From: Lachnospiraceae bacterium
GTDB lineage: Bacteria > Bacillota > Clostridia > Lachnospirales > Lachnospiraceae
Direction of reading: 5' to 3'
NCBI GenBank assembly: GCA_017420605.1
Contig: JAFOIS010000216.1
Location: 1 to 18,039, forward strand
DNA length: 18,039 bases
In this document: positions 11,702-16,173 of the stretch, piece by piece
Numbering within the stretch: the first letter of the stretch is position 1
Layout: every line of letters begins with the position of its first letter
The notes under the pieces: model-generated
Seen by the model: only the letters and a program-made list of their open reading frames with translations
The model's database searches: none
Told to the model about the DNA's origin: nothing
Translations under genes and position numbers: made by a program

Positions 11702-12826
11702 TCAATGTTCCGTCACTTGCATATCGCGGCGCACCCACTTCCCTCCGAGAAGGACACCCTTTACGGAAAGGTCCGGATCGAGGACGACGAGGTCGGCGAT
11801 CTTGCCGGATGCGATGGAACCGCGGTCTCCGTAGAGGCCCATGGCCTTCGCGGGCGTGGCGGACGCCATGCGGATGAGTTCGATAAGCGGCGCGCCGGTA
11901 TGCTTTCGCATGTTCCTGATCGCGACGGAAAGGGTGAGGCGGCTGCCGTAGAGTTCGCCGTTTATGACGTTGACGTCGGAGCCGCACGTATCGCCGCCCG
12001 CGCAGCAGTCGGAAACGAGGCAGATGCGGTCGGCGCCCTTGCATTTATAGATGAGTTTCAGGTAGTAGGGCCGCACATGTCCGCCGAGGGAATCCGCGAT
12101 GACTTCCGCGTACATCCGGTCGTTCACGAGGACAAACTGGTCCGAGCCGGGTTCATACGTTCCGCGGAACATGGGCGATGCATGTCCGGATCCGCACAGC
12201 ATGTGGGTCCCGATGGTAAGGCCGTAGGGTTCAAAGGTCTCAAGGAGCTCCGGTTTTGCTTTGGAATAGCAGACCGCAAGGCGGATGCCCTCTTTCTGCG
12301 CGGCGCGCGCAAATTCGAGCGCGCCTTCCTTCGCCGGATCGAAGGTCCACTGGCGGATGATCCCGCGCCCCGTTTCCATAAGCTCCCGGTATTCTTCCGG
12401 GTCAAAGGGCCAGTCCCGGCCGCCCTCGCTGCCGTAATCCGGGTCAAGGTACGGCCCTTCCATGTGAATACCGCGGATATTGCTGTCCTCTCCCATGGCG
12501 GCTTTCACGTTTTCGATGGCTTTGCGGAAGGAATAATCGCCGGCGTTCCGCCACATGGAGCAGAGGAGCGACGTCGTTCCTTCCTTAAGATGCCAGACCG
12601 CCGCGGCCGAGGGATTTTCGAAATGCCAGTATTCCCCGCTCCCGTGGCAGTGCTCGTCGACGAAGCCGGGCGCAAGGAAGCGTCCGCCAAGATCGATGAC
12701 TTCTTCACAGCCTGCATCTTCCGGGACCGGGTCGCCGGATATCCAGCGGATCCTGTCCCCCTCGGTGCAAAGGGAGCCGCGGACGATCGCATTTTCCAGT
12801 ATGAGGTTGCAGTTGGTGAAAATCAT
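11702..12826 (-). CDS. NagA-like amidohydrolase (N-acetylglucosamine-6-phosphate deacetylase family, divergent)
   Basis: A 374-aa member of the amidohydrolase superfamily, closest by motif order to NagA, which deacetylates GlcNAc-6-phosphate in amino-sugar recycling. Seen are the metal motif PGFVDEHCHG (His59, His61), HMEGPYL (Glu123), GTHM (His208), IADSLGGHV (His250), and VSDC with the catalytic-type Asp273. The C-terminus is a typical GSIASGKIADLVVLD strand. Differences from canonical NagA: the HLFNAM motif reads HMLCGS, and the usual GHSNA metal-ligand His appears as Tyr187 in CYSKA. The substrate is therefore uncertain. An ATG seven codons upstream (12847) has no ribosome-binding site; the ATG at 12826 follows GGAGAAA by 5 bases. 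It lies 81 bases after the PHP gene. No nagB or sugar transporter is visible. Confidence 0.8.
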   Translation of the reverse strand: MIFTNCNLILENAIVRGSLCTEGDRIRWISGDPVPEDAGCEEVIDLGGRFLAPGFVDEHCHGSGEYWHFENPSAAAVWHLKEGTTSLLCSMWRNAGDYSFRKAIENVKAAMGEDSNIRGIHMEGPYLDPDYGSEGGRDWPFDPEEYRELMETGRGIIRQWTFDPAKEGALEFARAAQKEGIRLAVCYSKAKPELLETFEPYGLTIGTHMLCGSGHASPMFRGTYEPGSDQFVLVNDRMYAEVIADSLGGHVRPYYLKLIYKCKGADRICLVSDCCAGGDTCGSDVNVINGELYGSRLTLSVAIRNMRKHTGAPLIELIRMASATPAKAMGLYGDRGSIASGKIADLVVLDPDLSVKGVLLGGKWVRRDMQVTEH

Positions 12827-12847
12827 AGGGCTTTCTCCATAAAACAT

Positions 12848-12907: not shown

Positions 12908-13636
12908 TCAGGGCAGCGGCCTGCCGGTCAGCGTCTCCAGGATCTCCCGGCGCGTCGGGCAGTCGCCCGCGAATGCGAGCGTATGGACCGGTTCACTGAT
13001 GTCTTCAAGGTAATGCGCGTCCGAATCGGAAATGATGCGGCACTTTTCAAGATACGGGTGTTCCCTAAGGAGCCCGTGCAGTTTTTCAAGACGTTTTACT
13101 TCCGCGCAGGTGAAGCGCGAATCCGGCGGGATAAAGCCGAGATTGGAGATCAGCGACGTGGAGTCCTTGTCGAGATGCGCCGGGATCATGATCCCGTGAT
13201 GGGCCGAGACCGCGTCGTATACGCCGTCGAAGGGGATCGACGTCGCATTGATCAGAAGATAGGGCTCCTCCCCGACGGGTTCGTCATTTTCGTCCATCAC
13301 GATCTGCTCGCCGAAGATCGCCGGCCTGTTCGGGATCTTCATGAGGCGCTCATAGACGTAGGCGTCCCAGGCCATGGCGTCTTCAAGTTCCGAAAACAGG
13401 CAGACGACGTGGACTTCCTCCTCGGTCGTAAGCTCCATGCCCGGAATAACAATAAGGCCATACTGTTCGCCGGCTTTCATGAGAGCCGGCGCGTTCCGTA
13501 CGGTATTGTGATCTGTCAGGGCAATGATCTGCAGCCCCTTGATCATTGCCATCCCGGCGATGTTGTTCGGCGTCATGTCCATGTCGCCGCAGGGGGAAAG
13601 ACAGGAATGGATATGCAGATCGTAAAAAAGTTCCAT
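12908..13636 (-). CDS. PHP-domain metallo-phosphoesterase
   Basis: A 242-aa single-domain PHP (polymerase and histidinol phosphatase) protein. The metal-binding set is complete: DLHIHS (His8, His10), TDHN (Asp42, His43), GMELT (Glu68), EVHVV (His76), PAHLD (His154) and DSDAH (Asp206, His208). The family hydrolyses phosphate esters with two or three metal ions; the substrate here is unknown. A TTG four codons upstream is in frame, but the GGAG ribosome-binding site precedes the ATG at 13636 by 6 bases, so ATG is chosen. It is the last gene of the DRTGG/ATPase/H-cluster cassette, 52 bases after the second DRTGG gene. PHP genes next to hydrogenase-type operons are familiar in Clostridia, where they may dephosphorylate a signalling partner; that role is inferred. 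Confidence 0.87.
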   Translation of the reverse strand: MELFYDLHIHSCLSPCGDMDMTPNNIAGMAMIKGLQIIALTDHNTVRNAPALMKAGEQYGLIVIPGMELTTEEEVHVVCLFSELEDAMAWDAYVYERLMKIPNRPAIFGEQIVMDENDEPVGEEPYLLINATSIPFDGVYDAVSAHHGIMIPAHLDKDSTSLISNLGFIPPDSRFTCAEVKRLEKLHGLLREHPYLEKCRIISDSDAHYLEDISEPVHTLAFAGDCPTRREILETLTGRPLP

Positions 13637-13688
13637 GCTTCGCTCCAAAGGCCTCCGCCGCGCCGGGCGAAGGCCCGCCGCGCAAGCG

Positions 13689-14024
13689 TCATTTCCCGAT
13701 CATTTCGTAAATGCGCTTCGCCGTCGGGAAGATCGCTTCCTCCGTGCGGAAGACCGGAAAGCCTTCCTGCTTCGCCTTCGCCAGGGCGGTCTCGTCAAGG
13801 TTCGCGCCTTCGGCGAGCACGACGCAGGACATGTCCGTAAGAGACATGACCGCGAGGGTGTTGATGTTCCCCATGACCGTGACCCATGCCGCGTTCTCGA
13901 TCCCGCGGCTCATCGCGATACTGAGAAGATCGCAGCAGAAAACGTCTTCGATCTCCCTCTCCGGTTCCTCGCCTTCCCAGACGACTTCCAGAAAACCTGC
14001 TTCCTGTAAATCTTTTACCGTCAT
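13689..14024 (-). CDS. DRTGG-domain protein (second copy)
   Basis: A 111-aa protein made almost entirely of one DRTGG-type fold, a small alpha/beta regulatory domain also found in phosphotransacetylase-like and CBS/DHH proteins. It begins MTVKDLQEAGFLEVV; the core strand-helix pattern runs through CCDLLSIAMSRG, AAWVTVMGNINTLAVMSLTDMSCVVLAEG and FPVFRTEEAIF. It has no catalytic residues, signal peptide or membrane segment that I can see. It resembles the first DRTGG protein of the cassette (15811-16173) in length and pattern, but the two are clearly diverged. It starts 19 bases after the H-cluster protein gene, behind GGGAGAT. Such proteins flank hydrogenase genes in many Clostridia; their role is unknown and a ligand-sensing function is inferred. 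Confidence 0.8.
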   Translation of the reverse strand: MTVKDLQEAGFLEVVWEGEEPEREIEDVFCCDLLSIAMSRGIENAAWVTVMGNINTLAVMSLTDMSCVVLAEGANLDETALAKAKQEGFPVFRTEEAIFPTAKRIYEMIGK

Positions 14025-14043: not shown

Positions 14044-15363
14044 TTACCGGTCCTTCTCCGGTCCGTCCTTTTTTCCGGCGGGCGATGCCGCGCCGCCGAT
14101 CTCCGACACGACGCCGGAGATCCGTTTCACGTAATCCCACAGAACGTAAATGCAGTCGGTCTCTTTCGCTTCGCCTTTGATGATATCCTCCGCGAGCGCG
14201 CTGCAGCTGGGCGCGCCGCAGGCTCCGCAGTCGATGCCCGGGAAGTGTTTGGTAAGCTCCTCGACGCGCGCCATCCGGCGGAGATTCTCCATGAGTCCCC
14301 CGCCGAGCGAGTCGACCGGATCGTACTCCACCTCTTCCGTCCACATGCCGATCCCGGGGAGGTCGCCATGCCAGCCGGAGACCGGCATATATTTCCGGAG
14401 GACCATCATTTTCGTCTTCGCGCTGTAGGGGTTCTCGACCGTGAGCACGCCGCCTACGCAGCCGCCCGCGCAGGCGTCGAGTTCGACGAACTGCAGATTC
14501 GAGAACTTCTGGTCCTCAAGGTCGCTTAAGACCTTGATGCAGTTTTCGATGCCGTCCGCCGCCAGATAATGGTCGTTGATGAGTCCCGCGGCCTCGCCGC
14601 CGGTAACGCCCCAGCCGATCCCGATCCTTCCGGCTTCCGCAAGGTCCATCGGTTCCTTCGCGGACTGCGGCATAAACGGCAGCAGCTTCACATAGACGTC
14701 GCGGATCGCAAGCACCCGGTCCACGTCCGTTTTCTCGACACCGGTCGGATCCTTGCAGGCCGAGACCTTAGCCGGGCACGGGGAAATGAAGAAGACCCCG
14801 ATCTTTTCCGGCGCAAGGCCCGTCTCTTCCATCGCTTTTTTCCTGGCCATGGACGCCGCGATCTCCACCGGCGGCTGGATCGGAAGAAGGTGTTCTATAA
14901 GAGACAGAAAGCGGATGCGGATCAGCTTCAGGATCGACGGGCAGGCCGTCGAGATGAGCGGCCACATTTCCGGATGTTCCTCGACGTAATGCCGGGACAT
15001 TTCGGAAACGATCTCCGCTGCCGTGCCGACTTCGAAGACCATATCGAAACCCATTTTGCGGAGCGCCGTGAGCACGATGTTGGTGTCGTCCAGATTATTG
15101 AACTGCACGTAGAGGGACGGCGCCGGCAGCGCGATCCTGTATTCGAAGTCATCCATCGAAGACAGCGGGTCGTAGACCGGGATCTTCGCATGGTGCTGGC
15201 AGATGCGGACGCATTCGCCGCAGTCGATGCACAGTTCCTGTGCGATCCTCGCTTTCCGGTCGCGGACGCGGATCGCGCCGGTCGGACAGCGCTTGATGCA
15301 GTTCGTGCAGCCGACGCACTGCTCTCTGTCGAGTTGTACGGAATGAATATGGTTGGTTTCCAT
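14044..15363 (-). CDS. [FeFe]-hydrogenase-like iron-sulfur protein, putative sensory type
   Basis: A 439-aa cytoplasmic protein with three parts. An N-terminal 2[4Fe-4S] ferredoxin domain has Cys16/19/22/26 and Cys45/48/51/55. An H-cluster domain (about 80-325) follows. A C-terminal 4Fe-4S motif CGACGAPSC ... DC (Cys379, 382, 387, 404) is of the kind seen in RnfB and CO-dehydrogenase partners. H-cluster motifs are degenerate: P1 TACPS (usual TSCCP), P2 SPCPAK (usual MPCxxK), P3 ELDACAGGC (usual EFMACPGGC). The four cluster cysteines (141, 196, 298, 302) and Lys199 are kept. The proton-transfer Cys is Ala140, and the methionines are Ser194 and Asp296. This matches putative sensory hydrogenases better than catalytic HydA. 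It sits between the RsbW-like ATPase and a DRTGG gene. It may still bind the H-cluster; activity is untested. Confidence 0.85.
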   Translation of the reverse strand: METNHIHSVQLDREQCVGCTNCIKRCPTGAIRVRDRKARIAQELCIDCGECVRICQHHAKIPVYDPLSSMDDFEYRIALPAPSLYVQFNNLDDTNIVLTALRKMGFDMVFEVGTAAEIVSEMSRHYVEEHPEMWPLISTACPSILKLIRIRFLSLIEHLLPIQPPVEIAASMARKKAMEETGLAPEKIGVFFISPCPAKVSACKDPTGVEKTDVDRVLAIRDVYVKLLPFMPQSAKEPMDLAEAGRIGIGWGVTGGEAAGLINDHYLAADGIENCIKVLSDLEDQKFSNLQFVELDACAGGCVGGVLTVENPYSAKTKMMVLRKYMPVSGWHGDLPGIGMWTEEVEYDPVDSLGGGLMENLRRMARVEELTKHFPGIDCGACGAPSCSALAEDIIKGEAKETDCIYVLWDYVKRISGVVSEIGGAASPAGKKDGPEKDR

Positions 15364-15401: not shown

Positions 15402-15827
15402 TTACTGCAGGTATACTTTCATCGTGACGGTGGTGCCTACGCCGATCTCGGTCTCGATCGAGAGTTCGTCCGTGTATTTCTTCATGTTCGGCAGACCCAT
15501 GCCGGCGCCGAACCCGAGGTTCCGGACGTTTTCCGGCGCCGTGGAATAACCGGCCTGCATGGCCTTCTCCACGTCCGGGATACCGGGGCCTCTATCGGCG
15601 AGGACCATCTTGATCTCCGAATCGTTTACCGTAACGGTGATCTCGCCGCCGTAAGCATGGATGACCATGTTGATCTCGCCTTCATAGATCGCGATCGCGA
15701 CGCGGCGCACGATGTCCGGCGATACGCCGAGACGCTTAAGCTTCCGCTTGACGTCCTGCGACGCTTCGCCCGCGCGGGTAAAATTGCCCTCCTGTACCTC
15801 GTATTTGAACTCAAGAGAATCGGTCAT
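15402..15827 (-). CDS. RsbW-like ATP-binding protein (anti-sigma factor/histidine kinase ATPase fold)
   Basis: A 141-aa stand-alone GHKL ATPase domain of the RsbW/SpoIIAB kind. The N-box reads EGEINMVIHA (Glu49, Asn53, His57), the G1 box DRGPGI (78-83) and the G2 box GFGAGMGLPNMK (105-116), followed by GTTVTM. There is no dimerisation/phospho-acceptor His domain, so it cannot be a complete sensor kinase. RsbW-type proteins phosphorylate anti-anti-sigma factors or bind sigma factors; neither partner is visible here. The start lies behind GAGGAGGG and overlaps the end of the first DRTGG gene by 17 bases; the H-cluster gene starts 38 bases downstream. ATPases like this accompany hydrogenase-like genes in Clostridia. 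A switch or signalling role with the H-cluster protein is inferred. Confidence 0.87.
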   Translation of the reverse strand: MTDSLEFKYEVQEGNFTRAGEASQDVKRKLKRLGVSPDIVRRVAIAIYEGEINMVIHAYGGEITVTVNDSEIKMVLADRGPGIPDVEKAMQAGYSTAPENVRNLGFGAGMGLPNMKKYTDELSIETEIGVGTTVTMKVYLQ

Positions 15828-16173
15828 AATCAGACCCTCCTCTCAGCCCGTGCTCATACAGAACACCGCAGGCGGTGAACATACGGTGCCCGGTCGCGAG
15901 AATGACCAGGTCGGCGTCTTCCGCCAGATGGATCATGTCCAGCGTCGGCCGCTTGGACCGCACGAAGCACACGCATTTCATATCCATCATTTCCGCGGTC
16001 CGGATGACCTGCGGATTGCAGAGCCCGGTGAGCAGGATCGCCTGATCCTTCACAAACGCGAGCACGTCGCTCATCATGTCCGAGCCGCAGGCAGAGTGCA
16101 CTTCCTCATCCATCAGTTCCTCTCCGCAAACGACTTCCGCGTCCAGCAGTTCTTTTGCATCTCTGATCGTCAT
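15811..16173 (-). CDS. DRTGG-domain protein (first copy)
   Basis: A 120-aa single-domain protein, first gene of the cassette. It begins MTIRDAKELLDAEVV, then shows CGSDMMSDVLAFVKDQAILL, TGLCNPQVIRTAEMMDMKCV and LVILATGHRMFTACGVLYEHGL, the strand-helix pattern of DRTGG domains. Several cysteines (Cys16, Cys29, Cys52, Cys67/69) are present, but their spacing does not resemble an iron-sulfur motif. It starts behind AAAGGGA. Its last 17 bases overlap the start of the ATPase gene, and the ATPase ribosome-binding site lies inside its final codons, so translation of the pair should be coupled. Function unknown; a regulatory role beside the H-cluster protein is inferred from the neighbourhood. Confidence 0.8.
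   Translation of the reverse strand: MTIRDAKELLDAEVVCGEELMDEEVHSACGSDMMSDVLAFVKDQAILLTGLCNPQVIRTAEMMDMKCVCFVRSKRPTLDMIHLAEDADLVILATGHRMFTACGVLYEHGLRGGSDYDRFS

Follow-up and report, generated by a model that had tools for sequence, protein, structure and literature searches.

A predicted group D [FeFe]-hydrogenase in a conserved cassette of kinase-like and phosphatase-like genes from a Lachnospiraceae bacterium

What can a protein do that keeps every cysteine of the [FeFe]-hydrogenase H-cluster and has no proton-relay cysteine beside it? The question is raised by a 439 aa protein encoded on contig JAFOIS010000216.1 of a Lachnospiraceae bacterium (GCA_017420605.1), a draft genome of 332 contigs. 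The window analyzed here is this whole contig of 18,039 bases. Its place in the tree, its domain order and its residues identify the protein as a [FeFe]-hydrogenase of group D (M2e, TamHydS-type), named HydS below, an ordinary member of a known, little-studied group of iron enzymes, which are slow and probably sense H2. The gene lies in a five-gene set with kinase-like and phosphatase-like genes that is repeated in numerous anaerobic bacteria, including many gut-derived ones. The best overall explanation, which we consider likely, is a group D sensor hydrogenase that feeds a signal into this cassette and probably tunes the hydrogenase HydABC. Its observed part consists of the predicted fold, the domain order, the cluster ligands, the proton-path residues, the place in the tree and the cassette.

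The original prediction had described a compact protein with two N-terminal [4Fe-4S] sites, an H-cluster domain and a C-terminal [4Fe-4S] site, without a fused PAS domain, and the Pfam scan returned exactly this order, with no PAS match (Table 1). The motif strings STACPS (P1), SPCPAK (P2) and ELDACAGGC (P3) are present in the open reading frame (ORF) and retain the H-cluster ligands C141, C196, C298 and C302 as well as K199. The substitutions that had been pointed out are also there: Ala140 replaces the relay cysteine, Ser194 and Asp296 occupy the two methionine positions, and Ala202 takes the place of the P2 Glu of group A.

The family was delimited in a class sample of 196 genomes, of which 106 have a match at E <= 1e-30 and 99 a relative at E <= 1e-79, the threshold for membership. 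The next matches, from 2e-36 to 9e-31, are separated by a score gap, and those fetched were longer group C-type proteins. Class relatives other than the window protein itself are 34-59% identical to it. In a phylum sample, the family occurs in 157 of 398 genomes at E <= 1e-70. A named collection contains at least 591 relatives, 80 of which were kept for alignment; the closest among the named matches listed comes from a Eubacterium sp. metagenome-assembled genome (75% identity). The resulting alignment holds 179 members, 99 from class genomes (window included) and 80 named.

All four H-cluster cysteines are invariant in this alignment (179/179) and the relay position is never Cys (0/179), so that a chance motif match can be rejected. 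The relay position is mostly Ala (159 members; 80/99 class, 79/80 named), otherwise S, D, N, T, H, L, F or V. Residue 199 is Lys in 168 members, Arg in 10 and Trp in one. The eight N-terminal ferredoxin cysteines are kept in 97-98 of the 99 class members and in all 80 named ones, and the cysteines of the C-terminal site in 99/99 and 78-79/80, respectively, the remainder being gaps. E294 is kept throughout (179/179), E257 in 84/99 class and 80/80 named members, and an Asp at 270 in 85/99 and 80/80. The earlier remark on Asp296 can be refined, as position 296 is variable: Leu prevails among class members (54/99) and Asn among named ones (72/80). The charged Asp296 (14476-14478), which stands beside the diiron site where group A enzymes have Met497, is rare (6/179), the window protein being the sole class case (1/99) next to five of the 80 named members.

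The phylogeny against groups A-D was calculated from 47 H-domains; rows of groups A, B and C were labelled from domain make-up and scores, and TamHydS has no row in it. The 16 D rows, including the window protein as sister to L045, group together at 100/100; groups A and B are well supported, and group C is weak (90/61). Group A membership is rejected by A140, S194, D296 and A202, which stand in place of the relay Cys, both Met and the P2 Glu, and group B membership by group scores, alignment and tree. The NCBIfam models for group A (118 vs. a cut-off of 450), A6 (91 vs. 406) and B1 (79 vs. 765) score far below their cut-offs, as expected for a member of another group. The bifurcating group A HydABC enzymes of A. 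woodii (7q4w) and T. kivui (8a6t) differ from the window protein: they have the proton path of group A, carry additional N-terminal domains and form a complex with HydB and HydC.

The closest characterized counterpart is TamHydS from Thermoanaerobacter mathranii (PMC8163306, PMC10407848, PMC11803613, PMC13104023). Group D/M2e is defined there by the missing PAS domain, a C-terminal Cx2Cx4Cx16C motif and the exchanges Cys299->Ala, Met353->Ser and Met497->Leu (PMC8163306). The window protein shares the domain order of TamHydS, i.e., 2[4Fe-4S], H-domain and Cx2Cx4Cx16C without PAS. Equivalences were mapped by motif position: A137 and S191 of TamHydS (numbering of PMC11803613, as for L291) would correspond to A140 at the relay position and S194 at the Met353 position. 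Leu291 vs. Asp296 is the one clear residue difference, at a site that varies within the family. Charged residues around the clusters are common to both proteins; in the window protein, R32, R34, D378, E392, D393 and D403 occupy sites named in PMC13104023. TamHydS uses an alternative proton path E252-E289-S249-D265 (PMC10407848), which maps by motif position to E257, E294, T254 and D270; the S249 site takes Ser or Thr. To the original prediction of an altered proton path it can be added that the path appears, from the residues, to be re-routed through E257/E294 rather than merely lost.

A predicted model of the window protein retains the hydrogenase fold in structure comparisons, with little information after residue ~350. 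Neither of the two refuting outcomes named in the original prediction was seen: the protein has K199 and E257 and lies off the branch of the three sampled members that lost both, and at the level of the fold the model is that of a hydrogenase. Residues 251-260 of the model, containing E257, have a mean predicted local distance difference test score (pLDDT) of 73. Among the PDB chains listed in the comparisons, none is labelled HydS. Artificially matured TamHydS contains an H-cluster and has a slow turnover (PMC8163306, PMC10407848). The original idea of an H2 or redox sensor that may assemble an H-cluster with slow turnover is supported, as it agrees with the literature proposal for group D, in which the sensor role is putative.

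Table 1. Features of the HydS protein and of the cassette genes in the window.
Feature	Position	Strand	Length (aa)	Basis
DRTGG protein 1	15811..16173	minus	120	PF07085 22.5 bits, just under cut-off 25.2; conserved position
Soluble histidine-kinase-like ATPase (HATPase), SpoIIAB/RsbW-like	15402..15827	minus	141	PF13581 50.6 bits; TIGR01925 69.4 bits; ATP-binding boxes intact
Predicted group D [FeFe]-hydrogenase (HydS/M2e type)	14044..15363	minus	439	PF02906 107 bits (cut-off 22.1); D clade 100/100; family in 99/196 class genomes
N-terminal 2[4Fe-4S] ferredoxin domain, residues about 8-60	15184..15342	minus		Fer4 matches (Pfam); eight conserved Cys
H-cluster domain, residues 77-305	14449..15135	minus		Fe_hyd_lg_C (PF02906)
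A140 (relay Cys position) and C141 (H-cluster ligand)	14941..14946	minus		alignment of 179
P2 S194-P-C196-P-A-K199	14767..14784	minus		sequence and alignment
T254 and E257, putative equivalents of TamHydS S249 and E252	14593..14604	minus		E257 conservation; role from PMC10407848
D270, putative equivalent of TamHydS D265	14554..14556	minus		Asp conservation
P3: E294 (TamHydS E289), D296, C298, C302	14458..14484	minus		alignment of 179
C-terminal [4Fe-4S] site C379-x2-C382-x4-C387-x16-C404	14146..14241	minus		PF04060 (FeS, residues 375-406)
DRTGG protein 2	13689..14024	minus	111	PF07085 31.2 bits
PHP-domain protein, putative phosphoesterase	12908..13648	minus	246	PF02811 34.9 bits

How group D enzymes pass on their signal was raised as a question in PMC8163306, and the conserved cassette offers four specific candidate partners of HydS in this respect. 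On the minus strand, the order from 5' to 3' is glutamate dehydrogenase, a hairpin, DRTGG protein 1, HATPase, HydS, DRTGG protein 2, PHP protein and a nagA-like amidohydrolase, with the contig end 1.9 kb before the cassette. DRTGG protein 1 and HATPase genes overlap by 17 bases. The terminator-like hairpin (16348-16327) between glutamate dehydrogenase and DRTGG protein 1 is weak, with seven such sites vs. 6.2 expected. The order DRTGG-HATPase-HydS-DRTGG-PHP, scored by ORF midpoints, is kept in 71 of the 73 named loci with enough flank, L064 and L068 being the exceptions. The E/N box and both glycine boxes of the HATPase are kept in 80-81 of 81, and 10 of the 12 His/Asp/Glu positions checked in the PHP protein in 75-78 of 78. 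We take these ten to be metal ligands; the other two, His150 and His151, are not conserved.

The HATPase resembles SpoIIAB/RsbW kinases in standing alone, in its size of ~140 aa and in lying beside a possible phosphatase. It differs from them in scoring under the anti-sigma cut-offs (TIGR01925 69.4 vs. 135; RsbW models 36.4 vs. 145 and 30.1 vs. 155), and no sigma factor or STAS match was found among the cassette proteins scanned. A histidine-kinase-like ATPase gene also adjoins the TamHydS gene; among the flanking small genes, an AraC-family regulator is named for TamHydS in place of the DRTGG proteins of the window. Pfam found no helix-turn-helix (HTH) domain in the two DRTGG proteins of the window, nor in ten flanking DRTGG-labelled proteins chosen from 156, eight of which match DRTGG (one just under the cut-off) and two of which match nothing. 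A DNA-binding output inside the cassette was rejected on these grounds. A search of titles and abstract openings returned no title on this cassette or on group D carriers without maturases. M2e gene clusters may be described in Calusinska (2010).

In the preferred explanation, the host HydEFG would insert the diiron site into HydS, and the H-cluster would slowly meet H2 or a redox change, while protons would move along E257-E294-T254-D270 and not through the cysteine used in group A. The changed state of the H-cluster would alter HydS and be passed to the adjoining SpoIIAB-like ATPase acting as a kinase; the two DRTGG proteins would be targets or adaptors of this kinase, and the PHP protein would reset the mark. 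The output would probably tune the electron-bifurcating HydABC; in relatives, the hydABC operon is usually found close to the cassette. Sharing an operon with a group A hydrogenase is frequent in group D without being a defining trait. By plain phmmer against the HydA of the same genome as the window, 35 of the 42 named loci with near-full flanks have a group A hydA within them (53/80 of all named loci). In the near-full set, the linked hydA is divergent upstream in 26 cases and co-directional downstream in seven.

The bifurcating HydA has the P1 string TSCSPGW, with a Ser at the position of CpI Cys300, in 53 of the 55 rows taken from named loci; the HydA of the source genome (L205:4398-6245) shares this string. 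Reading the Ser at this ligand position as proof of a dead hydrogenase was dropped, since TSCSPGW also occurs in A. woodii HydA1 (7q4v).

HydS could instead be a low-activity catalytic or electron-transfer hydrogenase, e.g., a ferredoxin-linked valve, and not a sensor. The measurable reversible activity of TamHydS (PMC8163306, PMC10407848), the proton-path residues kept in the window protein, and the 2[4Fe-4S] and C-terminal clusters that could carry electrons fit this alternative. We consider it unlikely, given that the conserved linkage to kinase-like and phosphatase-like genes counts against a valve and that hydrogenase genes of the A and B types are already present in the source genome. 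Its four PF02906 genes, assigned from scores, domains and tree, are a group A gene (contig C300), a group B and a group C-type gene (both on C244) and the window gene.

Several observations weigh against a sensor that is matured by HydEFG and acts on HydABC. No kinase substrate or DNA-binding output was identified in the cassette. TamHydS lies upstream of hydABC, whereas hydA is absent from the window contig and the source genome has its hydA on another contig. The C-terminal cluster is unresponsive to H2 according to PMC13104023, and TamHydS is filed under group C in one review (PMC8924675), so that the D label is not universal. The remaining points concern the maturases. HydG is present in the source genome, cut at a contig start; the only HydF trace is a HydF-like frame at a contig end that covers the first 35 positions (50.7 bits), and HydE was not found over the cut-off in this draft. 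Assembly gaps may explain the missing HydE and partial HydF, and G113, a genome of the same family, has HydE, HydG and HydF in a row. HydG was searched in all 99 D-carrying class genomes and exceeds the cut-off in 79; HydE and HydF were searched in the 20 genomes without it and in 10 controls, all 10 of which have both. Two of the 20 (G142, G069) have HydE and HydF, G057 has a partial HydF, and 17 lack all three over the cut-off (G011, G015, G020, G023, G056, G063, G083, G084, G098, G101, G111, G128, G134, G140, G157, G163, G172), so that the diiron site may not be made there.

These 17 carriers may use a different maturation, form no full H-cluster, or reflect draft gaps. One of them, G063, is a single contig. 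Weaker matches occur in two of them, a HydE-like one in G083 (201.6 bits, cut-off 254.6) and a HydG-like one in G084 (E 2e-53). In the stretches fetched, eight have a group A HydA (G011, G015, G056, G098, G101, G134, G157, G172) with intact P2 and P3 and the P1 string TSCSPGW. G083 and G140 have a single PF02906 match genome-wide, by score the D gene. In addition, Glu257 is missing from every one of the 11 D members that have no Lys199, compared with four of the 88 with Lys199, an association inflated by shared ancestry. These members (L170, L173, L175, L176, L177, L180, L182, L184, L188, L189, L193) have Arg or Trp at 199 and Gln or Ala at 257, and three of them are represented in the tree, on a single branch (99/92) away from the window protein.

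The maturase-less carriers and the paired loss of Lys199 and Glu257 are what speaks for an iron-sulfur scaffold or pure redox sensor, in which the H-site would contain its [4Fe-4S] part and never receive the diiron site. For the window protein this is improbable: it keeps K199 and E257, its genome encodes HydG and the HydF-like fragment, and TamHydS accepts the diiron site (PMC8163306). A broader proposal, which we put forward tentatively, joins both views: HydS would be the input of a five-gene phospho-switch free of DNA binding, completed by the SpoIIAB-like kinase, both DRTGG proteins and the PHP phosphatase, and this switch would adjust HydABC, or its non-H2 relatives, post-translationally. 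In HydEFG-less lineages and K199/E257-less members, the same cassette would need no more than the iron-sulfur part to serve as a pure redox sensor. The two exceptions provide a built-in comparison for the need of a diiron site and are, together with the cassette, worth carrying forward.

That the window protein is a PAS-linked sensory group C protein which lost its PAS domain is very improbable: group C is its next-best scoring group, the C-terminal cluster domain is common to C and D (PMC13104023) and the review mentioned above counts TamHydS as group C, but the protein falls outside the C rows and inside the D clade, and its genome has a separate group C-type gene. Group C membership as such is rejected by the tree and the missing PAS match. 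Group C sensory hydrogenases (TmHydS; the C244 copy of the source genome) share with it the 2[4Fe-4S], H-domain and C-terminal 4-Cys domains, with PF04060 in all 12 sampled group C proteins. They differ in being longer, in mostly having a PAS match, in forming a separate clade and in carrying Ile, Leu or Val in 12/12 sampled at the position where the window protein has E257. PAS exceeds the Pfam cut-off in seven of the 12 C rows (L194, L195, L196, L198, L200, L201, L204), is level with it in L197, falls slightly short of it in L003, L199 and L202, and has no match in L203.

The group C-type gene of the source genome (L003/L208, G000 C244) is one of six among the 12 sampled group C rows that keep the relay Cys. 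After this gene come one for a SpoIIE-type phosphatase (50.9 bits to PF07228) and the group B gene. Four group C-type proteins (L195, L196, L201, L204), two of them with an HTH match, are fused to a sigma-54 activator domain, which places an H-cluster domain and a transcription output in one chain. Downstream of the window cassette, the nagA-like amidohydrolase gene (11702-12847) begins 60 bases after it and matches TIGR00221 with 139.9 bits (cut-off 225.65); in the loci searched, a nagA-like match turned up just once. The large ORFs beyond it are presumably rpoB, rpoC and translation genes.
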